A stretch of 60,152 nt of DNA from IMG/VR virus record IMGVR_UViG_3300011115_000619, positions 1-60,152 of that record. One strand, written 5' to 3'. The first letter of the stretch is position 1; each line of letters begins with the position of its first letter. Shown one piece after another: positions 4,757 to 49,100 of this stretch. A program made the translations under genes and the position numbers. This DNA is from a virus. The notes beneath the pieces are model-generated. The model searched no databases. It saw only the letters and a list, made by a program, of their open reading frames with translations, and was not told where the DNA came from.

Positions 4757-4892
4757 GTTGCTCTCCTGCTCGTGCTGCCTTTGCAGCAACCTCTAGGTAC
4801 CGTTTCTGTGTCTTGGGGGATGCGTTGATCCACCCCCCACGCCACGGGTTGATGTCCTCATAGATGGCCTTCGCCATGGCTTCGAGGTTCAT
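4737..4892 (-). CDS. Small hypothetical protein, 51 aa
   Basis: Starts MNLEAMAKAIYEDINPW and continues with basic helices. The pattern (aromatic N-terminal helix, Trp, then Arg/Lys-rich helix) is common in short phage proteins of unknown role. The ATG overlaps the stop of the VWA gene (ATGA) and the 3' end overlaps the next gene by 20 bases, so it fills the gap in a tightly coupled operon. This coupling is the main reason to call it. Confidence 0.68.
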   Translation of the reverse strand: MNLEAMAKAIYEDINPWRGGWINASPKTQKRYLEVAAKAARAGEQHETKQV

Positions 4893-6070
4893 ACCTTGAC
4901 CTCCACCTCGTCACCGAACGGCGCAGACACGCTGGTGGTCTTGGCCCAGATCACAGGGTAGGACGGTGCCTCTGCTGGGAAGGTGCCGTACATGTCGGTC
5001 AGGTAGATCAGGGCCTGCGGCTCGATGCCCTGCTCCTTGATCCAGTCGAAGACGGGGCGGAAGTCGGTGCCACCACCGCCAACCGGCTCAGGGATCAGTT
5101 CCTCGCCACGCTCAAAGGTCTGGACCTTGTGGACCTTGGAGTCGCACCACACGAGGTGGATGCGCTCAGGGTCAGCGTCCTCGTAGATGGCCTTGACCTC
5201 TGCGAAGAAGGCATCGAGCAGCGCACCTTGGATGGAGCCAGAGGTATCGATACCCACCACGATCTCACCCACACCCTCACGCAGGTGGCTGGGCAGGTAC
5301 ATGCCGCTGGACAGGTAGCGACGATTGCCACGCGCCCATGTGTAGTCGGCAGGGATGGTGGATGAGAACATCCGGCGAAGCTGGTCACGCCAGTCCACGC
5401 TGGGCTTCATCGCCTCAGAGATCAGACGCTTGAGGACAGCGGGCAGCTTGCCCTGCATCTCGGCAGCCTGCGCAGCCTGAGCAACCCGCGTCATGACCTC
5501 GGACTGCTCGACCTCGATCTCTGATTGGGACATGGGCTGGCCGTCAGCACGCACCTTGTCTCGCACGCCACCCATATCCCATGCGTCACCGTCAGGGATA
5601 TGCTTGGTGCCCTTGGGTGCATTTGCACCTGAACCACCATCGTCGTTGGCCTTGGCCTCCTCCTCCAGCAGCTTGTAGATCTGCTCGGCAGACATGTTCC
5701 TGAAGTCTTCAGAGATCAGCGCACCGGCAGGCAGCTTCATGCCAGACGCCACCACGATGGGGTTAATGGCGTAGTCGCAGGCTACGTTCCACAGGCGAGG
5801 GTTGCGCTTGCCACGGCGCAAGTGATGGGCGTTGGTGACGTGCAGAACCTCATGGCACAGCACACCAAGGATCTCGTCCGCGCTGATCTCCTCGACAAAC
5901 TTGGGCGAGTACATGATGCACTTGCCGTCAGTCGCCATGGTGGAGATCTCAGGACGCTCGATCATCTGCATGGGGATGACAAGCGCGCCATAGAAAGGCT
6001 GGTTGAAGAGCAGCTTGATGCGGCCCTTGGTGATCATCAGTTCAGGGGTAAGCTTCTTGGTCGGGGTCAT
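4889..6070 (-). CDS. HExxH and VWA-domain protein, MoxR partner (DUF2201-like)
   Basis: A 393-residue protein. The N-terminal part has a zinc-peptidase-like HEVLH (His73, Glu74, His77); the C-terminal part is a von Willebrand A domain with a MIDAS site beginning DTSGS (Asp275) and later GGGTD and LTD. This matches the DUF2201 metallopeptidase/VWA families that pair with MoxR AAA+ ATPases as metal-dependent chaperones. Its presumed partner is the ATPase at 6618-7646. The linker between the two domains carries an in-frame palindrome (GANAP). The ATG overlaps the stop of the preceding small gene. The substrate is unknown. Confidence 0.88.
   Translation of the reverse strand: MTPTKKLTPELMITKGRIKLLFNQPFYGALVIPMQMIERPEISTMATDGKCIMYSPKFVEEISADEILGVLCHEVLHVTNAHHLRRGKRNPRLWNVACDYAINPIVVASGMKLPAGALISEDFRNMSAEQIYKLLEEEAKANDDGGSGANAPKGTKHIPDGDAWDMGGVRDKVRADGQPMSQSEIEVEQSEVMTRVAQAAQAAEMQGKLPAVLKRLISEAMKPSVDWRDQLRRMFSSTIPADYTWARGNRRYLSSGMYLPSHLREGVGEIVVGIDTSGSIQGALLDAFFAEVKAIYEDADPERIHLVWCDSKVHKVQTFERGEELIPEPVGGGGTDFRPVFDWIKEQGIEPQALIYLTDMYGTFPAEAPSYPVIWAKTTSVSAPFGDEVEVKV
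5616..5629. repeat. Dispersed palindrome core in VWA-protein linker
   Basis: Exact core GGTGCA-TT-TGCACC. Read in frame as Gly-Ala-Asn-Ala-Pro between the HExxH and VWA domains. Confidence 0.85.
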
Positions 6071-6562: not shown

Positions 6563-6586
6563 TTTGGGGTGCAATTGCATCCAAAA
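6563..6586 (-). promoter_or_regulatory. Palindromic leader
   Basis: Core GGTGCA-AT-TGCATC on the plus strand with the TTTGG left arm. Read leftward, its CCCCAAA half touches the Shine-Dalgarno of the 101-residue gene. Confidence 0.8.
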
Positions 6587-6617: not shown

Positions 6618-7646
6618 TCAGACCATCAGGGTGAGGTGTTCGCGTGCCCACTTGGCGACAGCCGGAACCTTCTTCAGTTCAGCGTCACGGGCGACAGCCT
6701 CCTTGATGCAGACGGTCGCATGTTCAGCGGGCAGCCGGTCAAGGTAGTCAACGATGGCACCCGCCGTCTTCTTGTCCATGATGCGGGACAGCTTGGACAT
6801 CAGCATGTACATGATGCCGGGACCGTTCTCGCCAGACGGGACCGGCGCATTGCCGGGGCTGGACAAAATCAGGTTGATGTCCGGCACCTGCATGGCGAGG
6901 CGCAGATGCCCCTCAAACACGGTCGCGGCACCCTCACCAACGGCACCAGCGATCAGGCGCTGCCGGATGAACGGCTCCACGGCCATGCCGATGATGCTGT
7001 TCACGAAGTTCCACGCACGGGGCGAGGGGTTGGACCGCTGCGAGGCATCGAACTTGTGCAGCAGGTCATCGTGCAGGCGGAAGAAAGACAGCACCTCCGG
7101 GCAGATGTCATTGGCTGCACCCCATGCGGTGAAGTCATCCACATCGCTGTCCACCTCAAGGAACACGAAGCGGTTGGCGAGATGGCGGGGCATCTCATGG
7201 GTAGCCGCACGGCTGGAGCGAGGGTTGCCAGCCGCCACGATGATGGCACCGTCAGGCAGACGGTACTCACCGATGGAGCGATCCAGCACAAGCTGGCTCA
7301 CGGTGTTCTGCACCAGAGGAACGGCCTGCGGCAGTTCATCGAGGAACAGGATGCCCGCCCAAGCAGGGTCGGACGGCAGTTCATCCGGGGCGTTCCAGAC
7401 GGTGCGCCCGGCGACCACAGAGGGGATGCCGCGCAGGTCCACAGGGTCCATCTGCACAAGGCGCAGATCGATCACCTCCAGACCGTGGCGGGCAGCGGCC
7501 TGCTTCACGAGCGAGGACTTGCCCCCACCCGGAGGGCCTTCAAGGAACAGGCAGATGCGGCTCTCGTCGCGGCCACCAGCGGCAGCCACGGCATTGTTCT
7601 GAACGATGGCCGCATCGAGGGCAGCGGCAACATGGGTCGGCTTCAT
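6618..7646 (-). CDS. MoxR-family AAA+ ATPase
   Basis: A 342-residue ATPase with Walker A GPPGGGKS (37-44), Walker B ILFLDE (Asp104, Glu105) and a sensor-1 Asn142 in VAAGN. MoxR ATPases act with VWA-domain proteins to remodel or activate target complexes, and such a protein lies downstream in the same operon. The ATG at 7646 was chosen because GGAG lies upstream and a good sigma70 promoter lies 37-72 bases before it; a longer start at 7718 would lie in the promoter. Confidence 0.92.
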   Translation of the reverse strand: MKPTHVAAALDAAIVQNNAVAAAGGRDESRICLFLEGPPGGGKSSLVKQAAARHGLEVIDLRLVQMDPVDLRGIPSVVAGRTVWNAPDELPSDPAWAGILFLDELPQAVPLVQNTVSQLVLDRSIGEYRLPDGAIIVAAGNPRSSRAATHEMPRHLANRFVFLEVDSDVDDFTAWGAANDICPEVLSFFRLHDDLLHKFDASQRSNPSPRAWNFVNSIIGMAVEPFIRQRLIAGAVGEGAATVFEGHLRLAMQVPDINLILSSPGNAPVPSGENGPGIMYMLMSKLSRIMDKKTAGAIVDYLDRLPAEHATVCIKEAVARDAELKKVPAVAKWAREHLTLMV

Positions 7647-7689
7647 GGTCTTGGTCTCCTGTCTCGCACCACATTGGTGCTTGGTTGCG

Positions 7690-7871: not shown

Positions 7872-8099
7872 TCACTTCACGTTGCGCCAAACGATGGTGC
7901 CCTGCTTGTCGGTGAGCAGGTGGTAGTTATCGGTGGCGATGGCGACCCTCACGTTGTAGCCAAGCGACTTGATGATCCCCATGGCACGGGGTGTGAGGGT
8001 CTTGGCGTTCAGCAAGTCCGCGAACTTGCGTGATGTGTCGCAGGCAGGGTAGGTCAGGTCATTGCCGTACACGTTCTTCACAGTGACTAGAAAGTCCAT
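7872..8099 (-). CDS. Hypothetical protein, 75 aa
   Basis: Function not recognised; a compact alpha/beta protein without cysteine or membrane motifs beyond single residues. It starts with MDFLVTVKNVYG, has a good AAGGAGAG ribosome site and follows a palindromic leader. It is one of the cassette-like genes of the leftward accessory cluster. Confidence 0.75.
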   Translation of the reverse strand: MDFLVTVKNVYGNDLTYPACDTSRKFADLLNAKTLTPRAMGIIKSLGYNVRVAIATDNYHLLTDKQGTIVWRNVK

Positions 8100-8113
8100 C
8101 GTCTCTCTCCTTG

Positions 8114-8137
8114 TTTGGGGTGCATTTGCATCTGAAA
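8114..8137 (-). promoter_or_regulatory. Palindromic leader
   Basis: Core GGTGCA-TT-TGCATC, arms TTTGG and TGAAA. It leads the 75-residue gene. Confidence 0.78.
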
Positions 8138-8143
8138 GGTATC

Positions 8144-8162
8144 GGTGGGGATCAACCCCACC
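8144..8162. terminator. Hairpin spanning the end of the DUF6011-like gene
   Basis: GGTGGGG and CCCCACC form a 7-bp stem with a five-base loop containing the stop codon (8152-8154) of the leftward gene. No T run follows, so termination is uncertain. Confidence 0.45.
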
Positions 8163-8760
8163 TCAACCCGTAATGGTCCGCGCAGATGGGACCGTAGCCC
8201 ACATGCACAGACCGCTCGTCCTTCAGGCCACGGCTACAGAAGCAGCAGTTACCAGTCCGCTTGCCATAGGCAGAGGCGGTGCCTGTCGGGTCCTTCGCCA
8301 TGGTGACAAGCGCCATCGCGACCTCGGTGATGGTGTCGATGCTCACCTTACGGGAAGGCTCGAACACCCCGTCACGGGTGATGCGTCCGTACCACGTCCG
8401 ATTCTCAAAGCTACCAAGGCTGGTGACATTGATTGCCCCCGGCACCTTCGATCGCTCGCCTGCCACAGAGATGCGCACGTCCGCACCGTCAGGCATGGCG
8501 ACCACAAAGGCAGGGAACTTCAGGCGCGACCCAGCCTTCTCCAGCAACGCCACGATGCCCGACACGTCACCCACGTTCACGGGTGCGGGCGGCGGGTCAT
8601 CCATCCCGGTCGCACGCTTGTGCAGCACGCCCAGCCAGTGAAGTTGCTTGTGGGACAGGCCACGATTGTGGAACTGATTGAGCAGGGACAGGGCGAACGT
8701 CCGATCCTTGTCGTTCAGGTTGTCGATGTTCTCCAGCAGGGCCTTCGCTTCGATATCCAT
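8152..8760 (-). CDS. DUF6011-like zinc protein, 202 aa
   Basis: The C-terminus carries CCFCSRGL followed by GYGPICADHYG, a four-ligand zinc motif I recognise as DUF6011, found in many phage and actinobacterial proteins of unknown role. The N-terminal half is helical and basic with a Pro-rich linker. The start at 8760 has GGAG eight bases upstream and follows a palindromic leader. The stop codon lies in the loop of a hairpin. Nucleic-acid binding is likely but not shown. Confidence 0.8.
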   Translation of the reverse strand: MDIEAKALLENIDNLNDKDRTFALSLLNQFHNRGLSHKQLHWLGVLHKRATGMDDPPPAPVNVGDVSGIVALLEKAGSRLKFPAFVVAMPDGADVRISVAGERSKVPGAINVTSLGSFENRTWYGRITRDGVFEPSRKVSIDTITEVAMALVTMAKDPTGTASAYGKRTGNCCFCSRGLKDERSVHVGYGPICADHYGLRWG

Positions 8761-8774
8761 GTTCTCACTCCTGA

Positions 8775-8798
8775 TTTGGGGTGCAATTGCACCTGAAA
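8775..8798 (-). promoter_or_regulatory. Palindromic leader
   Basis: Exact core GGTGCA-AT-TGCACC with TTTGG and TGAAA arms. It leads the DUF6011-like gene. Confidence 0.85.
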
Positions 8799-8804
8799 GG
8801 TTAG

Positions 8805-8845
8805 TGTCCCACCGTCCGTGGGTATGGGTTTGGGACAGTGGGACA
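8805..8845. other. Inverted repeat after the Gp88-like gene
   Basis: TGTCCCAC (8805-8812) pairs with GTGGGACA (8838-8845). It lies between the Gp88-like stop codon and the next palindromic leader, the same place where the three-hairpin elements occur in later gaps, and may be a diverged or different version of that punctuation. Confidence 0.45.
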
Positions 8846-8854
8846 GTTGGGCAG

Positions 8855-9628
8855 TTAGAAGCGCACCACGAAACCATTCGTGCTACGCTTGGCCTTGGCA
8901 CCCTTGGGCGACAGCCCCACGACCACACCCTTGGGGTCAAGGTGGCGCAGGTCATGCTTGTCGCCGTTGATCACGGTCGCGCCCCAGTAGGTGGCGGGGA
9001 ACGCCATGCCGAACACCACGGCCACGTTATGCCCAGCGGCAAGCGCAGCCTTGCATTCCTCGTGGTTCTCGCCAGAGAACGAGAATGTCTGGTGTACGTT
9101 GGGTGCAACTGCACCCAAACGCTTGAAGTCCTTGGTGTACTCCACGAATTGAACGTCCGGGAACAGAGCGGGCAGGGTGATCATCGTGCCTTCTGGTACC
9201 CCAGTCATGGCTGCAGTGCGGGCATCCACCTTGAACTTGATGCGCGACCAGTTCAGGTCAGTCGACCCATTCAGGCGGGCGCAGAACTTCTTCAGCAGAC
9301 GCCGGGCTTTGCGCGATGCCCGAACAATGAACCGGGCAATGTGATTCATGTATTCGTTGCGATGCTCCATGAACATGCGAGCCTTGGCAATTCTGGCCGC
9401 ACGAACGTGACCAATCCCTGCCTCAAGGTCAACGACCATTGCAACATGCCCAGCGTACCAACCAAGGCACAGTTCAACGCACTGGGGCGAGGCATTGCCG
9501 CACAGATCACCCACGCCCCCGCTCGTGAAGGGTGCCATGTAGTGGATCGCGTTCAGGTAACCATAACCCTCGGCCTTGACGGCCTTGGCGCTGTCCATGG
9601 ACATGACACGGTCGTAATTGATTGCCAT
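8855..9628 (-). CDS. Gp88-like phage protein
   Basis: A 257-residue protein resembling the phage gene product 88 family (as I recall, Pfam GP88). It has the N-terminal Cys-rich segment (LCGNASPQC...CLG), a central conserved ARLNGSTDLNW and a C-terminal NGDKHDLRHLDP segment. The biochemical role of this family is not known. The start at 9628 has GGAGG seven bases upstream. An in-frame palindrome (GAVAP, 9102-9115) sits in the middle. It belongs to the leftward cassette cluster. Confidence 0.82.
   Translation of the reverse strand: MAINYDRVMSMDSAKAVKAEGYGYLNAIHYMAPFTSGGVGDLCGNASPQCVELCLGWYAGHVAMVVDLEAGIGHVRAARIAKARMFMEHRNEYMNHIARFIVRASRKARRLLKKFCARLNGSTDLNWSRIKFKVDARTAAMTGVPEGTMITLPALFPDVQFVEYTKDFKRLGAVAPNVHQTFSFSGENHEECKAALAAGHNVAVVFGMAFPATYWGATVINGDKHDLRHLDPKGVVVGLSPKGAKAKRSTNGFVVRF
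9102..9115. repeat. Dispersed palindrome core in Gp88-like gene
   Basis: Exact core GGTGCA-AC-TGCACC, read as Gly-Ala-Val-Ala-Pro on the minus strand. Confidence 0.85.
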
Positions 9629-9641
9629 TGCATGGCCTCCA

Positions 9642-9665
9642 TTTGGGGTGCATTTGCACCTGAAA
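9642..9665 (-). promoter_or_regulatory. Palindromic leader
   Basis: Exact core GGTGCA-TT-TGCACC, CCCCAAA half facing the Gp88-like gene's ribosome site. Confidence 0.85.
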
Positions 9666-9667
9666 TC

Positions 9668-9729
9668 CTGACGGCCTCGTCAGTGGGGATCACATCCCGC
9701 AGACCGGGGTTTCCCCCGGTTTCGGCCTT
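9668..9729 (-). ncRNA. Three-hairpin element, copy A
   Basis: Stem 1 CTGACG/CGTCAG (loop GCCT), stem 2 GGGAT/ATCCC (loop CAC), stem 3 ACCGGGG/CCCCGGT (loop TTTC), then TTCGGCCTT. On the transcribed minus strand it begins as AAGGCCGAA two bases after the stop codon of the 92-residue gene. Confidence 0.7.
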
Positions 9730-9731
9730 GG

Positions 9732-10010
9732 TCAGTCCCAGAGTCGCTCCAGATTGTCGGCGACCCAGCGCAGCGATTCCTTGGCTTGCGCGAAATCGTC
9801 CGCAAGAGCATCGCCATTTCCATCGTTGTTCCCGTGAAGGGTCAGGCAGGCACCATGCAGCATCAGCAGCCCCGTCCAATCGTCAGGGTCCACGTCCGCA
9901 GGGTGACCCTTGCCGAACATTGCCATGTACTGCAAACGGTCCCCGATAAAAGTGCAAAGGTGCGACCGCAGGTCATGCCAGCCATCGGGAATCTCAATCA
10001 CGCGCTTCAT
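9732..10010 (-). CDS. Hypothetical protein, 92 aa
   Basis: Function not recognised. Starts MKRVIEIPDGWHDL and is rich in Asp and Leu, soluble and acidic. The ATG at 10010 has GGGAG eight bases upstream and a palindromic leader just before it; a longer reading to 10157 would translate the leader. Flanked downstream by a three-hairpin element. Confidence 0.74.
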   Translation of the reverse strand: MKRVIEIPDGWHDLRSHLCTFIGDRLQYMAMFGKGHPADVDPDDWTGLLMLHGACLTLHGNNDGNGDALADDFAQAKESLRWVADNLERLWD

Positions 10011-10023
10011 TCTCGTTCTCCCA

Positions 10024-10047
10024 TTTGAGATGCAATTGCACCCGAAA
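10024..10047 (-). promoter_or_regulatory. Palindromic leader
   Basis: Core GATGCA-AT-TGCACC, TTT and AAA ends. It abuts the stop codon of the membrane protein gene (10048) and leads the 92-residue gene. Confidence 0.8.
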
Positions 10048-10242
10048 TCAGCGTGCCGCCCACCAAGGGGCATTGTGTTCGCGCACTGCGGCCTGCATTT
10101 CCAGTTCGCGCATGACCTGCGCGCTGGTGCGGTTCCGTCGCGCCACGGTATCGGCATAGAAAAAGTGATAGGTGAGTATCCCGGTGACGACCGGCATCAG
10201 GATAATCAGACCAAACATCTGCAGGCTTGTGGTCACGTCCAT
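10048..10242 (-). CDS. Small membrane protein, 64 aa
   Basis: One predicted membrane segment at about residues 8-28 (MFGLIILMPVVTGILTYHFF), then a charged helical cytoplasmic tail. GGAGA lies eight bases upstream of the start. Function unknown; small single-span phage proteins of this kind often modify host membrane processes, but nothing here shows which. Part of the cassette cluster. Confidence 0.75.
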   Translation of the reverse strand: MDVTTSLQMFGLIILMPVVTGILTYHFFYADTVARRNRTSAQVMRELEMQAAVREHNAPWWAAR

Positions 10243-10255
10243 TTTTATTCTCCAG

Positions 10256-10279
10256 TTTGAGGTGCATTTGCACCTGAAA
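10256..10279 (-). promoter_or_regulatory. Palindromic leader
   Basis: Exact core GGTGCA-TT-TGCACC, arms TTTGA and TGAAA. It leads the small membrane protein gene. Confidence 0.85.
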
Positions 10280-10281
10280 TC

Positions 10282-10341
10282 CTGACGGCCTCGTCAGTGC
10301 CCGCATTACGGGTCAGACACGGGTGACCCCGTGTTTCGGCC
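10282..10341 (-). ncRNA. Three-hairpin element, copy B
   Basis: Stem 1 CTGACG/CGTCAG (loop GCCT), stem 2 CCCG/CGGG (loop CATTA), stem 3 ACACGGG/CCCGTGT (loop TGAC), then TTCGGCC, directly after the TAA of the 86-residue gene on the minus strand. Confidence 0.75.
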
Positions 10342-10602
10342 TTAGAAAGGAATCGGCGACCATACCTCGGCATTGCTCGGTTCCATGGCGATGATATCCC
10401 TGTGGGGCAGGGGCTTGCCGTTGGCGAGCCTGACACTGATGCACAGGTCATCCCAGTCCGCATACTCAGCGGCACGCTCCGCAATTTTGCTGGCGCAAGC
10501 GAGTGTCTCGTAGGTGTTGTGGTTCCAGCGGCGCGTCACGGTCCCGGTGATTTCATCGCGGCTACCGTGAATTGTCAGGGTGACATAGATTGCGAATTGC
10601 AT
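10342..10602 (-). CDS. Hypothetical protein, 86 aa
   Basis: Function not recognised. Starts MQFAIYVTLTIHGS, with alternating beta-like hydrophobics and then charged helices. GGAGA lies upstream of the start at 10602. Its TAA is followed at once by three-hairpin element B. Confidence 0.74.
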   Translation of the reverse strand: MQFAIYVTLTIHGSRDEITGTVTRRWNHNTYETLACASKIAERAAEYADWDDLCISVRLANGKPLPHRDIIAMEPSNAEVWSPIPF

Positions 10603-10614
10603 TGTCGTTCTCCG

Positions 10615-10638
10615 TTTGGGGTGCAATTGCACCCGAAA
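10615..10638 (-). promoter_or_regulatory. Palindromic leader
   Basis: Exact core GGTGCA-AT-TGCACC, CCCCAAA half next to the ribosome site of the 86-residue gene. Confidence 0.85.
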
Positions 10639-10641
10639 GTT

Positions 10642-10803
10642 TCAGATTGCGCGAGCGGCCTTGCCCACAATCAGGGTGGCGGTCGCGGTCGCGTCCACGG
10701 TCCCATCCAGCATGGCACAGCACGCCCCCTTCATGTTGCGGGCATAGACCAGCGCAACGCGAACGGCACCCTTGTCACGAAGGGTCACAAGATAGGCGTT
10801 CAT
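10642..10803 (-). CDS. Small hypothetical protein, 53 aa
   Basis: Starts MNAYLVTLRDKGAVRVALVYAR and ends in an Ala/Thr-rich segment. It has no strong ribosome site of its own; its ATG overlaps the stop codon of the upstream 30-residue gene (ATGA), so translation is probably coupled. The beta-rich pattern and the tight fit between coupled start and downstream palindromic leader support a real gene. Confidence 0.62.
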   Translation of the reverse strand: MNAYLVTLRDKGAVRVALVYARNMKGACCAMLDGTVDATATATLIVGKAARAI

Positions 10804-10892
10804 GCTGCACCATGAAGCAAAGCAATGGCGATCACGAACATCACCAAGCGACCGGGCATGGTGCCCAGCAGAAACCCTGCCACATTTTCCAT
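10800..10892 (-). CDS. Membrane peptide, 30 aa
   Basis: A 30-residue peptide, MENVAGFLLGTMPGRL then a hydrophobic stretch, forming one membrane segment. AAGGA lies seven bases before the ATG, directly after a palindromic leader, and the stop overlaps the next ATG. The leader and the coupling are the evidence; the length is too short for family recognition. Confidence 0.6.
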   Translation of the reverse strand: MENVAGFLLGTMPGRLVMFVIAIALLHGAA

Positions 10893-10906
10893 TGTGTCAT
10901 TCCTTG

Positions 10907-10930
10907 TTTGGGGTGCAATTGCACCTGAAA
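10907..10930 (-). promoter_or_regulatory. Palindromic leader
   Basis: Exact core GGTGCA-AT-TGCACC, arms TTTGG and TGAAA. It leads the 30-residue membrane peptide gene. Confidence 0.85.
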
Positions 10931-10940
10931 GCTAAACCAT

Positions 10941-11000
10941 CTGACGGCCTCGTCAGCACCCGCATCACGGGTGGACACGGGTTGCCCCGTGTTTCGGCCT
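10941..11000 (-). ncRNA. Three-hairpin element, copy C
   Basis: Stem 1 CTGACG/CGTCAG (loop GCCT), stem 2 ACCCG/CGGGT (loop CATCA), stem 3 ACACGGG/CCCGTGT (loop TTGC), then TTCGGCCT, one base before the TAA of the 111-residue gene (plus-strand order). Confidence 0.75.
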
Positions 11001-11001
11001 G

Positions 11002-11337
11002 TTACCATGGTTCCTTGGCATGGTCCGCTTCGTCCCACCAAGGATCATTCTCGCAAGCGGGCACGGGGTCAGTCTCCGCATGGTACTGTTCCTGTAGAAC
11101 GAACAGCCTGTGACGGGTGGCCTCCGCGATATTGTCCCACCGCACGATTTCGGAGTTCAGGATTTCGGCCCGGAAATCATCAGGCTCCACCCCCTCAAAC
11201 TTTGCTTCTGCCATAAGCACCCGCAATTCGTTGCGGCACTTGCGGGCGGCACCCTCCGCACTTTCAGCGAGGGTGCGCATCTGATTGAAATCCTCATTCT
11301 CTGCGATGTACTGAAAGAAGGGGTCAAAGGCAGGCAT
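11002..11337 (-). CDS. Hypothetical protein, 111 aa
   Basis: Function not recognised. Acidic and largely helical, with a Trp-rich end (NDPWWDE). The ATG at 11337 has GGGAG seven bases upstream; a TTG at 11343 is less likely. It is followed by three-hairpin element C and preceded by a palindromic leader. Confidence 0.75.
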   Translation of the reverse strand: MPAFDPFFQYIAENEDFNQMRTLAESAEGAARKCRNELRVLMAEAKFEGVEPDDFRAEILNSEIVRWDNIAEATRHRLFVLQEQYHAETDPVPACENDPWWDEADHAKEPW

Positions 11338-11350
11338 GTTCAATCTCCCA

Positions 11351-11374
11351 TTTGGGGTGCAATTGCACCTGAAA
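11351..11374 (-). promoter_or_regulatory. Palindromic leader
   Basis: Exact core GGTGCA-AT-TGCACC, arms TTTGG and TGAAA. It leads the 111-residue gene. Confidence 0.85.
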
Positions 11375-11380
11375 TCTCAA

Positions 11381-11450
11381 ACGATGGGGCCATCGTCAGT
11401 ATGGGCATCACCCATAGACGCAGGGGCTTGCGCCCCCGCGTTTCGGCCTT
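11381..11450 (-). ncRNA. Three-hairpin element, copy D (covarying)
   Basis: Stem 1 ACGATGG/CCATCGT, stem 2 ATGGG/CCCAT (loop CATCA), stem 3 ACGC then GGGGC paired with GCCCC then GCGT (loop TTGC, one mismatch), then TTTCGGCCTT. Stem sequences differ from copies A-C, but pairing, loops and tail are kept. Confidence 0.78.
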
Positions 11451-11453
11451 GTG

Positions 11454-11996
11454 TTATTCCTCGCTTGCCAGTTCCACGTCACCATCCTTGGCGGCTGCGG
11501 CTGCGAGTTCCTTAAGCACCCGCACCCGTTCCGCGACCGTTGCGTAATCGTCGTCCGACAGTTCCGCGATGCGCTTGGCGAGTGCCTCAAGGGGGTCAAC
11601 CGGCGCAACATGAAGCGCGCGGATCTTGGTTTCAGTGTCGATATCGTTCTCCGCGAACCAGTCGAGCAATTCGCGCTTGCCATTGCGGGCAATCTCCCGA
11701 ATCTCCGGGCAATTTTTGATCACGCCATTGGCGTTGGCGCAATAACGGGTGGCGCAAGCGTCCGTGATACCGTTGGCGAGCATCAGGTCCTTCAGTTTCA
11801 TCACTTGCCCCTTTTCAAGTCCACCAGACTTGAGGGTGCCGACGACGACGATATCGGCCATGAGACCGGCATACACTTCTACCTTGGCTTCATTGCAGAA
11901 ACCGCGTGCGGCCTTGGCATCCTTGTCGCGTTCCATGACAACGGCATGGCCCATGGCAACGCGGGCGACGATATCGTTCAGGTTGAGCGTGTTCAT
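11454..11996 (-). CDS. Hypothetical protein, 180 aa
   Basis: Function not recognised. Starts MNTLNLNDIVARVAMG. It has a mixed N-terminal half with three cysteines and a helical, Glu/Ala-rich C-terminus. GGAG lies nine bases before the ATG. It is the first gene of the leftward cluster, so its product would be made early if transcription starts in the 12 kb intergenic region. Followed by three-hairpin element D. Confidence 0.76.
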   Translation of the reverse strand: MNTLNLNDIVARVAMGHAVVMERDKDAKAARGFCNEAKVEVYAGLMADIVVVGTLKSGGLEKGQVMKLKDLMLANGITDACATRYCANANGVIKNCPEIREIARNGKRELLDWFAENDIDTETKIRALHVAPVDPLEALAKRIAELSDDDYATVAERVRVLKELAAAAAKDGDVELASEE

Positions 11997-12010
11997 TTTG
12001 GTAGTCTCCA

Positions 12011-12034
12011 TTTGGGGTGCAATTGCACCCATAA
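12011..12034 (-). promoter_or_regulatory. Palindromic leader
   Basis: Exact core GGTGCA-AT-TGCACC. It leads the 180-residue gene at the head of the leftward cluster. Confidence 0.85.
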
Positions 12035-12532
12035 TCGGGCGAGATTGCCCGGCGCACTAGACCGTGATCCAGTGGGCGGGACACACTCGCTTGTGGGTGG
12101 CACGCAATCGCGCCACCCCCCATATCGTTGAAGCACCCCTTGCTATCGGGGCGCCACACAACGACTAGTTAAACCGATCTTATATTGTTAGGGCATAGCC
12201 GTTCCCATTGCAGGGTGGCTCACATCTCTACCGTTCCATAGGGGCTTCTGCTTGCTCTGCCCGGCGATGTGTTCTCTTGATTGGAACATTCATTGCGACG
12301 AACAGCCTATGGGCAACTTTGATGTGGCCTACCTTTTTCATAAGTCATCGCGGTAGGAGCGACCGCCCCTCACGCGGGGCTAGCTATTCGATTGTCAAAG
12401 AACGGTCAGGGGCTTGTACCATCCCCCCCGGGGGACTTGCGCTGTTTCCCCCGCCGGGGCCGGTCGGGGTGTCCCCCGCCGGTGAATTGATAACGCCATG
12501 GGACCGGGGCTGGATGCAAGCAAAAAATGCGA

Positions 12533-12555
12533 TTTGGGGTGCATTGCATCGAAAA
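12533..12555. repeat. Palindrome variant with one-base centre
   Basis: TTTGGGGTGCA-T-TGCATC: the central pair is reduced to one base. No ribosome site follows on either strand. Confidence 0.65.
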
Positions 12556-12594
12556 AAGGGGAGAGTTTGGTAAAAGGTGAATGATTTCAATGGG

Positions 12595-12624
12595 TTGAGC
12601 GTTTGCCTGTGTCGCGTATATATT
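12595..12624 (+). promoter_or_regulatory. Putative promoter for the terminase small subunit
   Basis: TTGAGC (12595-12600), then TATATA after 16 bases or TATATT (12619-12624) after 18. The AT-rich -10 stands out from the GC-rich surroundings and lies about 80 bases before the first rightward gene. Confidence 0.5.
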
Positions 12625-12705
12625 ATAAAGAGTGGGCGCGGAAATCGGAGCGTATGTTCCGGTTTTGTTCCGCCCGGAATCAGAGCGAAGCGAGAGGAAA
12701 GCCGA

Positions 12706-13203
12706 ATGAGGGGACCGAAACTACCTAGTGGACTAACACCCAAACAGGAAGGCTTTGCCCGTATGGTGGCAAAAGGGTCAAATCTAACAATGGCTTACCG
12801 TGAAGTGTATGACACTGGAACCATGGCAGATAAGACTATCTGGCAAGAGGCATGGACACTTTCAAGAAACCAGAAGGTGGCCGATATGATTGAAAGCCTG
12901 CAAAAGGCTAATGAAAGCATGGAGTTGCATGATTCCGAGAAAGCAAAGGCATGGGCTTTGGAAAGACTAAAGGTAGAGGCAACCAGTGCAGAGACTGACG
13001 GTGCTCGTATTCGTGCCGTGGAATTAGTTATGAAGCACCATGGTTTACTTACTGACAAGTTGGTGACCAAGGATGAAACCGAATTGAATGCTGTAGACTT
13101 GCGAGCAATGCTTGAGTCTAAACTTGCAGATCGGTTGGGATTACTTATTGACCATGAGGATATACTTGAAGACAGCGAGGAGGAGGAGAGCGAGGAAGGC
13201 TAA
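12706..13203 (+). CDS. Terminase small subunit
   Basis: A 165-residue protein. The N-terminus reads LTPKQEGFARMVAKGSN and continues with a helix-turn-helix-like segment and NQKVADMIE, the usual small-terminase pattern that recognises the packaging site. The C-terminus ends in a run of Glu/Asp. The ATG at 12706 has AGAGGA seven bases upstream; an earlier ATG would translate the promoter. Codon use is visibly more AT-rich (TTA, CTA, AAA) than in its neighbours, and it sits 4 kb from the large subunit, so it may be a recent acquisition. Confidence 0.8.
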   Translation: MRGPKLPSGLTPKQEGFARMVAKGSNLTMAYREVYDTGTMADKTIWQEAWTLSRNQKVADMIESLQKANESMELHDSEKAKAWALERLKVEATSAETDGARIRAVELVMKHHGLLTDKLVTKDETELNAVDLRAMLESKLADRLGLLIDHEDILEDSEEEESEEG

Positions 13204-43184: not shown

Positions 43185-46100
43185 ATGGTCAAGCGCGTAA
43201 GTTTTGCCGGTAACACCATTGAGTTTCCTGATGAATTTTCACGGGAACAGATCGACCAGATCATCAAAGAACGCGCCCCGGAATACAGAAAGATCTTTGG
43301 TATAAAAGAACCTGAAAAGCCTTCTGGCTTCAAGGCAGCGGTTGGCTCTGGCATAGATGCACTTCAGCAGCAGCTTTACTCAGCCGGTGAGGGTGCGGCT
43401 GGGGCGTTGGGCCTTGAGAGTCTGGCCAAATTTGCAGGCGAGGGTGCCGCAAGGAACAAAGCTGAGGCAGCAGCAGCCTTGCCTGAGCAGATGCAGTTTG
43501 GTAAGGCTGAAAGCCTTGGTGACTACTGGCGGGCTGCGAAGGAAGCACTGGGCACAAGCTTGCCTCAGATGGCTCCTTCTGTTGTCGCTGGCGCTCTGAC
43601 CGGCGCTGCCGCAGGCTCTGCCGTTCCTGTTCTTGGCACTGGCATTGGTGCGCTCATTGGCGGCACAGCGGCTGGTCTGCCTCAGTTCTTTGGTGCCAAC
43701 CGCGAACGTCAGAAAGAAGAGAACGCTGGCGTTGTGAAGTCTGAAGGGGCCGCTCTGCTTGCTGCCGTTCCGCAGGCCGCGATGGACAGCTTACTGGGTA
43801 AGTTCATCCCCGGCGCTGGCCGTGCTGTGGCTGGTGGTGTCCTGACCCGTGCGGTCAAGAGTGGCGCTGAGGGCGTCATCACCGAAGTTCCAACTGAAGT
43901 GGGTCAGTCCATCCTTGAGCGTCTGCAGGCAGGCCTGCCTCTGGATGATGACGAAGCGATTGGCGAGTACAAAGAGGCCGCGATTGCTGCCGGTATTCTG
44001 GGCGGTGGCATTGGCTCTGTCAGTGGCGCGGCTCAGAAGCGTGCCATGACCGATCAGGAGATGCGTGCGCTGGCTGGTCAGGAGCAGTCGGACCAGCTTC
44101 AGCAAAACATCAACGATGCCCGTATGGCGGCTCCTGCCGCCGCTCCCGCCGCTCTCCCGACCGCGCCTGCTGGAACGCCTCCTGCGACCACCACGGCTCC
44201 TGCAACGGCTTCTGCAACGGCCACCACGACAACCCCCGCCACAGCCCCTGCTACAGGTGCAACTGCACCCAACGCCCTAGCAGCCACCCCTCCTGCCGCC
44301 ACTCCTTCCGCTGCACCAGCATCAAGCTTGGTCAACCAGCAGGCGGCAGAAACAGCCGCGCAGATTGAAGCGGCCACCGCGCCGGAACCCGCGCCCACCC
44401 TGCCAAAAGGTAAGCCCGTCAGGGTCACCTACCTAAATGATGATGGTTCAGACGCCGACGTTGCGCAGGAGATGCAGCTTGTCGGCAACGAACCTGACGG
44501 AACCCCGATCCTTATCAACCCCCAAGGCCTGCCCTTCAAGCCCGAACCTAACCGCGTCAGGATTGAGCCACTTGAAGTCACGACCCCCTCCCCCGCTCAG
44601 CAGGTAGCTCAGGCAGAAGAACTGCCCTCTGCCACTGAACTCACGGCAGAACCTGCGCCTGAGCAGGAAATGGATCTCTCCACGGCCCTCAAGGAACTCA
44701 TCGACAGGGCAGACCTCAAAGCTGCACCCGCTCCTGTTGAGAACGCTCCCGCGCCTGAGCAGACGACGGGTCTGCTCGAAGATATCAAGACGCTCATTGA
44801 AAACGCAGACCTCAAGGCGGCTCCGGCTCCTGCCGAAAACGTACCTTCTACGGTACAGCCTGAAACTGCCGCACCGGCATCCAAGAGGGTAAGGAAGTCT
44901 CAGGCAAAGCCCGATACCCTGACCCCTGAGCAGGAAGTGGTATTTGAGCAGGCCATTAACTCGCTGCCTGCTGGCATCCGCATCATAAACACGACGGATC
45001 TGGGGAGGCAGCTTGGTTTCAGTGCTACCGCCATGTTCAAAACACTTGGCAGGCTGGCCGAAGAGGGGAAGGTTCAGAAGACCGGCAAGGGTCCGTACAT
45101 GCGCGTGGAGGCGTCAGTTGCTCCCGCCGCAAACGAAATAATCGAAGCGCCCGCAGCACAGCCCACCCCTCAGCCTGCCACTCAGGCTCAGCCAAACATC
45201 TTTGATGCGCTGGTCAACTTGGCAAGCACTCAGGCGCGAAAGATGTATCCGGGAGAGATAATTAGCGCCGAGGAATTTGCCGAACAGCGGAATATCACCC
45301 TTGAGCAGGCACAAGAAGCTCTTGGCAGCAACCCCTTCTTCAAGGAAGAGGATGGTGTCTTTGAGCGCCTTGAGAAGCCTCAAGACGACACCCCGCCCGC
45401 CCCCGCCGCAAAGCCCAAGGCAGCAGCCCCCAAGAAGGCACCTGCTCAGAAGGCGGCACCAGCAGCAGCCACCGAGCCAAAGCAGAAGGCCGCTCGCAAG
45501 CCCAAGGCCACCCCTGAGCAGCTTCAGGCAGCACGGGACAGCATCATTGCCGCGCCCGTCAAGACCAAGCTGGACTTGCCCGCGCTCATGAAACAGCACG
45601 ACATGACCATGGAAGAGGTCAGGGGCGTTGCTAGGTCCCTTGTTGACGAGGGGTTTGTTGTCCTCCCGTCCAAAAGCAAGGGGTACATCCGCACTGCCAA
45701 GGAGGCTCCGAAGGCGGCAGCGCCCAAGGTCGAAGCGCCCAAGGTCGAGAAGGTGGCTGAGGCCCCGAAAGTTCCGAGTCAGGAACAGGCCGCACCTGAA
45801 ACCAAACCAGTTGAGCAGGTTGTTGAAAAGCCGGTCGAGCCAAAGGCAGAGGTTGCGCCCCAGCCCCCTGCACCAGCAGCCGAAGAAACAGAAGCAGAGA
45901 CCGTCACGGAAAAGGTTGATGTCGCCGATCTGCTGGCCGCCCTCAAGAAAGAAGCTGCAGCCGCTCCTCAATTGACGGACAGCGAAAAGCTTGCGATGGC
46001 AGGCATCAACAAACTGTCGCTCAAACCCGACAGCGTTGTGTCGGCCCTCACTTTGATGGCCAAGATCAGGGAGATCAATCCTAATTCGGGGCTGACAGCG

Positions 46101-49100
46101 GCCAAGATTAAGAATGAAATTTTTCCAGAGCTTGTAAAGAAAGGCATTCTTGTGCCGGGCGAAAAGGGAACGGGCAACTTCCTGATCCCGCCCAAGCAGA
46201 AGGCTGCTCCCAAGCCCAGAGGCCCCAGAACTCAGGAGAGCAGGCGTGCTGGCGCTGAGCGTGCTGCGGCCAAGAAGAACATCGACAAAGCCAAGACCGC
46301 CGCTCCTGTTGAAGAAGAGGTTGAGGCTGAGGAAGGCGCGAGCATTCGCGAGATCTTGAACAGCCAGAAAGATCCAGACCAGCGTCTGGAGACACTCACT
46401 GAAGACAGTGCCCTCGACCTTGATATCGATGACTTCATTGCTGAGGTCGAGAAGATCAAGAACGAGAAACTTGCCGCTGCCCCGAAAGACGATCCGTTTG
46501 ACGCAAGCTTCTTAATGGATGCGCTTGGTTTCATGGAGGATATTGATCCGGCAGATCCTGAAGCCGTCTTCGAGGCTCAGAAGCTTCTGGTGAATGCAAT
46601 TGGCAAAACTGACAACCTGCTTGCCCCTGAAGTTCGTGAAGATCTTCAGAAGGCTTGGGCAGAGGGTGGCGAAGGAGACGGCACCCCCGGCGAACTGACG
46701 GAAGATCAAAAACTCAAGAAGAGATTCGATGTTCTGAATGAATTTGGAAACAAGATAACCCTTGGAAATATGGGTTCGTTTATAAATAGCCTTAACAATG
46801 AAGGGTTGATTGACGCCAAGTCAAAGTATTGGCAAGACACATTGAGCCAGCTTTACGGCATATTCTCAAACGAAGGAAAGATATCTGCACTTTCCTACCT
46901 TGAGAACAGGTTCAATCAGTATCGCGCTGATTTGAAAAGCAAGCCTGCTGATAAGTCAATGACTCCAAAGCAGGAGGCTCAGAAAGAAATTGACAATCTT
47001 CACGACAACAATCAAATCAACACAAACTCACTCTTGGGCCTTGTTGATGATTTTGTGAAGAGGGGTCTTTTCAACGAAGACATTGCCAAGGTTGTTCGCT
47101 CAAGCATTAAGAGCAATGCATACCAAGGCTCGATTGTTCTTGAGCGTGCGCTGAGCGCAAAGAGCATCGAGGAACTCTCCACCAGAGGTGCAAATGCACT
47201 TGAAACTGAAGCAGAGGCAGAAGCAAAGCCCAAGCGCACCAAGCGCCGGAAGGGCAAGAAGAAAGCCGCCAAGGAAGCCAAGGCAGCGCCCGAACTCACC
47301 CCTGAGCAGATCGCAGAGCGGGAGGCCCGTCGTGCAGAGGCACAGAGTTTCCTTAACGAGCGGCTGGCGAAGATGGAAGCCAGCGGTCCCTTTGGCCAGA
47401 AGGCTGCTGCGGAGGTGCGCAGAGTCCTCGCAGATGGCGATATATCGAACGTACAGGCCCATCACGCCTTCGTCATGGCGGAGATCGCCACGAAGCTCCT
47501 GAAGGGCACTGCAGCCAATCCTGACATCCGTTTCCTCAAGAGCGTGGACTACGATGGCAGGCGTCTGCGGCGCGGCAATCCAGATGCTCTGGCAGGACTG
47601 ATCGAGTTCTCCCTGAACGATGCTGAGGGCAAGAGCGTCCTTGGCTACTCTCGTGAGACTGCTGCCCACGAGCCGTTCCATGTCCTGCAAGATCTGATGG
47701 AGCAGTATGACCCTGCCACGTCCAAGATCCTCTTTGGTCAGCGTACTGGCATCGACCCGGACACCGGCCACGGCATCTACAAGGGTGGTGCGTTCCGTGA
47801 CGGCATGACCCTCGCTGACATCAGCCCGTCCATCCAGCGCACCCTGAAGAACCTGTCTCCTGAGCCGGGTGGCGGAAGCTACTGGAGTCGGTTCAGCGAG
47901 CAGTACAATGCTCAGGATGCGGCAGGAGAGAGGCTGCGTTCTGAGTTTGGCAAGCAGCGCGAAGCCATGGCCTATGTGTTTGGTATGTTGGCTGACGCCA
48001 AGGAGCGTGGGTTCAACACCAACTCTCTAGACCCTGCGTTCAAGCGGTTCGTGAACTTCCTTGCTGCCTTCCGGGAGAAGATGGGCAGTTTCCTGCGTGG
48101 TGAGGGCTACCGCTCCACCGATCAGGTGCTGGAGGACTACATTTCGGGAGAGCGCCAGAAGGGCTATGGCGAGGAGGTGGATCGAGGCGGGCTTGGTGAG
48201 TTCAGCGTCAGGGGCAATGATCCGGTTTTTGTCAGGACCTATAAGGAGCTTCGTGAAAGCGCCAGAAGCAGGTCTGATTGGAAAGATTGGTATGATCGTC
48301 ATGACAAGCTCTTGCGCGACACCTTTGGTAATGACGCTGAGTTGTTCCAGACGATCCTTTCGGCAACCTCTCAGGCAGCCAGCGTAGCCGCCAATGTTGG
48401 TTTGGCTCTCAAGGCTTACCGGCAGATGAAGTCCAACGCCAATCAATTTGAGGGTTTTCTCCCGGCGGTCATCAAGAACCTTGAGCGCATCAGGGCTGAC
48501 GAGGCCTTGCGCGGTGCGAAGATCAGCGAGTATGGCAAGGCCAGCGCCGGAGATGAGGCTGGCATTGCTGTTGACCGACACATCGCCATGATCATGTTCG
48601 ACAAGAAGTCTCCCAACGCACGAGAAATTGCTGTTGCGAAGGAGTGGATCAGGGACATTGCGCGAGACCTTGGCTGGAAGCCTCGCGAGGTTCAAGCTGC
48701 TCTCTGGGCCGCAAATCAAGTCATCCAAGGAAAGGACCCGGCAGATGTCAGAAGCTACGACTACTTCCTCGACCGCAAGGCCAACCAAATCGCAGCCCTT
48801 CGATCCGCGTTCCCTGACGTTGGAAGAGAGGCAGGCGGCATTCGAGAAAGCAGCAAAGCTGTTCAGTCTGGCGAAGAGCGCTCGCAGCGTGGAGGAGTAG
48901 GGTCTGACGGCGAGTTCTCTGTGCGTGGTGGCCGTCTGTCTGAAAAGGCAGAGATGGCCATCAACCGTGGTCAGCTTCAGAACGCCAGCAAGAACCTGAC
49001 GATCATGCAGCGTCTGAAGAAGATGGCTCAGCGCGTCTTTGATCCGCTGGCAGACATGACTGGCCGTGACGAGTACCTGATGCAGCGTTACCGTGCGCTG

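Follow-up and report, generated by a model that had tools for sequence, protein, structure and literature searches.

Predicted type II hammerhead ribozymes between phage genes with a covarying 3′ tail complementary to the catalytic strand

Judged from their sequence, four intergenic elements of a phage are type II hammerhead ribozymes, predicted to cleave themselves, and each ends in a short 3′ tail complementary to its own catalytic strand. They lie in IMG/VR record IMGVR_UViG_3300011115_000619, whose 60,152 nucleotides we call the window, and the minus strand shows one order of parts in all four gaps: GGCC, GAAA, a hairpin (stem III), UC, the predicted cut, a second hairpin (stem I), CUGACGA, another GGCC (preceded by a U in one copy) and the tail. 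Stem II is long-range: the 5′ GGCC pairs with its counterpart some 50 nt further 3′. The invariant core CUGANGA ... GAAA with its A15.1-U16.1 pair is present in 4/4 copies; in copy D an additional U follows A9 and may reduce activity. Cleavage is predicted after the GUC that occupies the NUH site between stems III and I in all four copies; a structural scan permitting any NUH found GUC in 376 of 383 unique matches, at loci that had been retrieved with GTC-containing patterns. Stems I and III are closed by loops, stem II is open and the stems show compensatory changes, which is the type II architecture. The parts are listed below with their scores against Rfam RF02276 and against R1, a covariance model built from 44 sequences, the four window copies among them; the fold is the third basis in each case.

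Ribozyme A, 9668..9727, minus strand (Rfam 24.8 bits, R1 52.0 bits, fold): stem II 5′ GGCC 9727-9724; GAAA 9723-9720; stem III hairpin 9720-9703; C17 9702, predicted cleavage between 9702 and 9701; stem I hairpin 9701-9684; CUGACGA 9683-9677; stem II 3′ GGCC 9676-9673; tail GUCAG 9672-9668.
Ribozyme B, 10282..10341, minus strand (Rfam 26.4 bits, R1 58.2 bits, fold): GGCC 10341-10338; GAAA 10337-10334; stem III 10334-10317; predicted cleavage between 10316 and 10315; stem I 10315-10298; CUGACGA 10297-10291; GGCC 10290-10287; tail GUCAG 10286-10282.
Ribozyme C, 10941..10999, minus strand (Rfam 33.6 bits, E 4e-4, R1 66.7 bits, fold): GGCC 10999-10996; GAAA 10995-10992; stem III 10992-10975; predicted cleavage between 10974 and 10973; stem I 10973-10957; CUGACGA 10956-10950; GGCC 10949-10946; tail GUCAG 10945-10941.
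Ribozyme D, 11376..11448, minus strand (Rfam 20.0 bits, R1 57.3 bits, fold): GGCC 11448-11445; GAAA 11444-11441; stem III 11441-11418; predicted cleavage between 11417 and 11416; stem I 11416-11400; CUGACGA 11399-11393; extra U 11392; GGCC 11391-11388; tail CCAUCGU 11387-11381, pairing with ACGAUGG.

An Rfam cmscan of positions 8000-13000 in e-value mode returned exactly four matches, all to RF02276 (Hammerhead_II) and all at the four elements. The gathering cutoff of that family is 37 bits, which none of the four copies reaches, and for this reason the default Rfam scan of the region at that cutoff was empty. With a long-range stem II and Hammerhead_II scores of 20-34 bits such ribozymes are easily overlooked, and because the current Rfam model misses them at its cutoff their abundance in phages is probably underestimated. 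Building a covariance model had been suggested as a check on the elements, and R1 recovers the four copies at 52.0-66.7 bits with the next-best window match at 11.4, scores that are not independent since the copies were part of the model. Coincidence is a very poor explanation: the window contains four matches to the hammerhead pattern, its reversed control 0. Folded alone and without its tail, each copy is predicted to adopt the hammerhead as its minimum-energy structure. A scan for tRNA or tmRNA gave nothing.

A first-pass annotation had placed a covarying three-hairpin RNA element in each of these gaps, and that description is confirmed. The elements are where it put them, all on the minus strand, and GGCCGAAA does lie soon after a stop codon, 3-8 nt past the first stop base of a minus-strand gene (TGA 9734-9732, TAA 10344-10342, TAA 11004-11002 and TAA 11456-11454). 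Each holds a GC stem of 6-10 bp, a stem whose loop is of UGAUG/UAAUG type (plus-strand CATCA) and a third stem of about 6-7 bp, after which comes the palindromic leader, GGTGCAWWTGCACC; copy D, as noted there, is changed on both sides of all three stems with pairing kept. Its reading of the structure was right but incomplete, since from four copies it did not see that the two GGCC strands pair or that the third hairpin competes with them: the three hairpins are real, but together they are not the active fold, and represent instead the catalytically inactive or post-cleavage alternative of a known ribozyme. Its first hairpin is stem III and its second stem I, and the third pairs the catalytic bases CUGAY(G) with the tail immediately 3′ of stem II, which reads RUCAG in copies A-C and CCAUCGU in D. 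Modeled in this way, the tail hairpin and the active core cannot coexist.

The annotation took the covariation of four copies as the signature of a selected RNA structure, a claim that could have failed with more homologues. In 52 tailed ribozymes pairing is kept in 99.9% of cells and both sides are changed in 250; two-sided changes affect 13/20 pairs, among them 3/4 in stem II, 6/6 in stem I and 3/5 in stem III, with CG, GC, UA and AU all occurring at the third pair of stem II. All controls, comprising 500 shuffles and slid partners, fall far below the real score, and 0/500 shuffles reach it; the covariation seen in four copies is therefore real and general. The same data speak to its other proviso, that the stems might be inverted repeats of a known transposable element. 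That origin is rejected because the stems vary from copy to copy with pairing kept while the catalytic letters stay fixed; terminal inverted repeats with a mobility gene were not found, and no tested operon gene has a transposase match in PHROG or Pfam.

Relatives of these ribozymes are common in viral sequence. The core pattern with a GGCC stem II occurs in at least 119 viral stretches of IMG/VR, as against 1 for a composition-matched scrambled core, and the patterns with GGGC and GGTC stem II gave a further 65 and at least 120 matches, respectively. An independent structural scan requiring all three stems found 406 matches (383 unique) in the fetched loci and 0 in reversed sequences, and some phages (L008, L317) carry arrays of eight or more ribozymes. 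In the species-genome collection, the strict GGCC pattern with a tail was found only in a Rhodobacteraceae MAG contig (L328, JAPOSK010000116.1), at 212-268 and 553-613, both between a stop codon and the following RBS.

The ribozymes are tightly fitted between genes. Among the 349 with enough flanking sequence, 310 start at, or no more than 17 nt from, the stop codon of an open frame, and 302 have both this stop and a start codon within 90 nt (median start distance 26 nt), where random positions give 17% (stop) and 11% (stop and start). In 99 cases the stop is a UAG whose last base doubles as the first G of stem II. The median spacing from one ribozyme to the next is 466 nt, and in all but 1 of 274 loci they keep to a single strand. 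In the window the surrounding genes are the following.

11454..11996, minus strand: gene preceding ribozyme D (ORF and RBS identified by eye; unmatched in PHROG and Pfam).
11002..11337, minus strand: the one gene separating ribozymes D and C (matching no PHROG or Pfam family).
10342..10602, minus strand: final gene in the group of about three small ones separating ribozymes C and B.
10048..10242, minus strand: first gene of the pair separating ribozymes B and A.
9732..10010, minus strand: second gene of that pair.
8855..9628, minus strand: gene following ribozyme A, a member of the Gene product 88 family (PF17338, phrog_1617).
9647..9660, minus strand: palindromic leader GGTGCAAATGCACC after ribozyme A.
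10261-10274, 10912-10925 and 11356-11369: leaders of the same kind after ribozymes B, C and D, each directly before an RBS.

From this arrangement, four cuts would divide the window mRNA into a block of one gene between D and C, about three between C and B, two between B and A, and then gp88 onward. Scans for sigma-70 promoters and terminators found no more than in shuffled sequence. A strong terminator-like hairpin with a T run lies inside the operon at 6609-6587 (minus strand), just ahead of a palindromic leader, and at the operon's far end a DUF2201 metallopeptidase/VWA-like protein (4889-6070, minus) adjoins a MoxR-like AAA ATPase (6618-7682, minus). The palindrome GGTGCAWWTGCACC stands ahead of the RBS in most genes of the operon. 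Copies in the window span 4432-59246 (for example at 6568, 7848, 8119, 8780, 9647, 10029, 10261, 10620, 10912, 11356 and 12016), and some fall elsewhere, even within ORFs (42436, 44256, 49206). At the equivalent position relatives have other CANNTG-centred palindromes, namely AACGCATATGCGTT in L329 (4239-11733) and CCGGGACAGCTGTCCCGG in L165 and L183, beside their ribozymes; the position of the leader is common to these phages and its sequence specific to each.

The packing of stop codons against stem II raises the question of whether translation controls the tail. A ribosome at the overlapping stop would mask the 5′ GGCC/GAAA and leave the RNA uncut, and untranslated RNA would be cut, making the tail a translation-coupled off-switch. 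In most of the 349 ribozymes stem II touches or shares bases with the stop codon, and a masked 5′ strand would leave the 3′ strand only the tail hairpin to form. Tight packing at stop codons may, however, merely reflect compact phage genomes, and we regard such a switch as unlikely. Our preferred interpretation of the tail, as a lock on the cleaved product and/or a timer, draws on its covariation with the core and on folding predictions.

A tail of the form (N)RUCA is present immediately 3′ of stem II in 90/385 phage type II hammerheads (~23%), in stem II groups GGCC, GGGC, GGTC and GGAC. Catalytic position 7 is otherwise free, and in tailed ribozymes it matches the tail base: the pair is C-G in 56, U-A in 32 and U.G in 2, with C-A in 0 and no other combination (Fisher p=2e-22). 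Grouped by flank similarity, the tailed ribozymes form 66 clusters, 34 of them purely C-G and 29 purely U-A. Homologous sites show the double change itself, CUGACGA/CGUCAG in L094 and L061 against CUGAUGA/CAUCAG in L010, and also a wobble intermediate, U.G in L165 against C-G in L183. Ribozymes with a purine at N7 might be expected to carry YUCAG tails; 0/40 have a tail directly behind stem II, and one distal UUCAG was seen by eye (L180). A second candidate tail class picked out by eye, AGNNGYCUC pairing with GAGGC, was weakly enriched and was set aside. Arrays often contain tailed and tailless copies together, and since ~77% of relatives are without it the tail is not essential.

The tail might instead be the 3′ partner of a loop I pseudoknot that helps the active fold, given that most type II hammerheads are reported to have a pseudoknot between loop I and the 3′ tail (Perreault et al. 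2011, PMC3088659) and that three window copies allow a 4-bp loop I pairing by eye (UGAU x GUCA in A and C, GAUG x CAUC in D). Copy B cannot form it, however, and across 383 ribozymes the complementarity of the tail to loop I is not in excess (Z 1.6, with none in the GGCC, GGGC and GGTC groups), as against Z 16 for its complementarity to CUGANGA. The loop base G needed for a UGA x UCA pseudoknot is not enriched among tailed ribozymes (p 0.62). Covariation links the tail to base 7 but not to the loop. These comparisons make a pseudoknot role very improbable. The tail thus occupies the position of the pseudoknot strand of other type II hammerheads and yet appears to favor the opposite, inactive fold.

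Folding predictions are consistent with such an opposition. For the window copies the predicted probability of stem II is 0.99 when the transcript stops at the 3′ GGCC and 0.005-0.10 once the tail is added, and in the predicted fold of the 3′ cleavage product the core strand is paired inside the tail hairpin. In 81 tailed relatives the mean probability of stem II is 0.96 before the tail and drops to 0.16 once the real tail is present, but only to 0.59 when the tail is shuffled; for 280 tailless ribozymes, real and shuffled flanks give similar values (0.57 vs 0.50). The calculations use two-dimensional nearest-neighbour energies and ignore hammerhead tertiary contacts and Mg2+ stabilisation, and the gap between the active and tail folds is only 1-3 kcal/mol with these terms left aside.

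Predicted at full length, the RNA has its energy minimum in the three-hairpin fold, which raises the alternative that the elements are simply mRNA-stability or boundary hairpins in three-hairpin form, derived from ribozymes that no longer cleave. The extra U in the core of copy D would fit decay, as would the closest relative by terminase (L329, TerL 82%), which lacks a hammerhead and carries another kind of element, with two hairpins, ahead of gp88. However, GAA, G8A9 and the cleavage-site C17, which are unpaired and have no role in the hairpins, are invariant across many phage families while the stems vary, and these are the positions that decayed ribozymes would be first to lose. We therefore think it improbable that the elements serve only as hairpins.

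The interpretation we favor, and consider likely, is that the hammerheads process polycistronic phage mRNA during its transcription, with the tail as product lock and/or timer. Behind the moving RNA polymerase, stem III would fold first, followed by stem I and finally stem II (GGCC x GGCC), and the RNA would cut itself after GUC before the tail hairpin wins. Such cuts would split the minus-strand polycistronic mRNA into gene blocks, the upstream one ending just past a stop codon in the stem III hairpin with a 2′,3′-cyclic phosphate and the downstream one beginning with a 5′-OH and the stem I hairpin in front of an RBS. Once the tail is transcribed, or once cleavage frees the strand, the CUGAY-GAGGCC-RUCAG hairpin would form and exclude the active fold. 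As a product lock, refolding of the freed strand would block religation, shield the new 5′ end and make cleavage one-way; as a timer, the tail would confine cleavage to a brief co-transcriptional window. The tail would hamper uncleaved RNA too, and so could lower rather than support processing. A stronger form of the idea, which we hold only tentatively, is that the tailed ribozymes are a widespread phage subclass of type II with a built-in timer, in which a tail covarying with position 7 stops the ribozyme once the tail has been transcribed. If so, cleavage would race the polymerase at every gene junction, the outcome would decide what fraction of transcripts is cut there, and a phage could tune cutting gene by gene within one array.

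The distribution of the ribozymes among related phages is patchy. The closest terminase relatives (L329/L409, 82%) share this type of operon but differ in palindromic leader and carry no hammerhead, and a hammerhead is nearby in only 4/78 newly fetched terminase relatives; for these reasons we suggest that the ribozymes come and go like exchangeable modules. L329 has four intergenic two-hairpin elements of its own (about 5150-5210, 5510-5555, 5925-5970 and 7100-7147; GTCGGCAT..ATGCCGAC-NNC-CGACCA-TTG-TGGTCG) with no Rfam match; the one upstream of gp88 is at the position of window ribozyme A. A general association with the gp88 gene was considered and dropped, with 0 hammerheads at 79 loci around gp88 homologues. 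We found no close cultured relative by DNA. The cultured relatives by TerL protein are phage 023Pt_psg01, Pelagibacter phage HTVC027P and phage DSL-LC04, and no hammerheads were found in their fetched regions.

Type II hammerheads, their clusters and the idea that they process mRNA date from 2011, and phage clusters were shown to self-cleave in vitro and, in one case, in E. coli as well (PMC3088659); the role of prokaryotic hammerheads is still called an open question (PMC6155905). Hammerhead arrays are thus already known. The tail appears to be new, as we found no description of a covarying anti-catalytic tail in the main texts of the openly readable literature. The present data offer a testable design, in which a single phage mRNA would be divided into gene-sized pieces by ribozymes fused with its stop codons, together with a natural self-antagonising tail in about a fifth of sampled relatives. 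Viroid hammerheads (Avsunviroidae) are reportedly selected for co-transcriptional function, with activity tied to folding during transcription (PMC3185496), and in this respect resemble what is proposed here. They differ in hammerhead type and genome, in serving unit-length processing of circular RNA rather than of phage mRNA, and in having no described RUCAG tail. Streptomyces phage Janus (NC_054660.1, L488) likewise has eight ribozymes by R1, six of them at the Rfam cutoff, between small genes, but most of its copies pass that cutoff and fit an Rfam-type consensus better than ours, and its host and phage group are different. The Janus array spans 45189-50632, and the record of this cultured, annotated phage annotates none of the eight. 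With the type II family of RF02276 (PMC3088659) the window copies share the catalytic core, the permutation with open stem II and the GUC site, and also the clustering, described for that family between prophage genes with transcript processing proposed. They differ in scoring under the cutoff, in a stem II of 4 bp, and in a loop I that is short and of UNANG type where others have the loop I-tail pseudoknot, a common but not universal type II feature that gained no support among the window copies and their relatives. In the window copies it is instead the catalytic strand with which the tail is predicted to pair.
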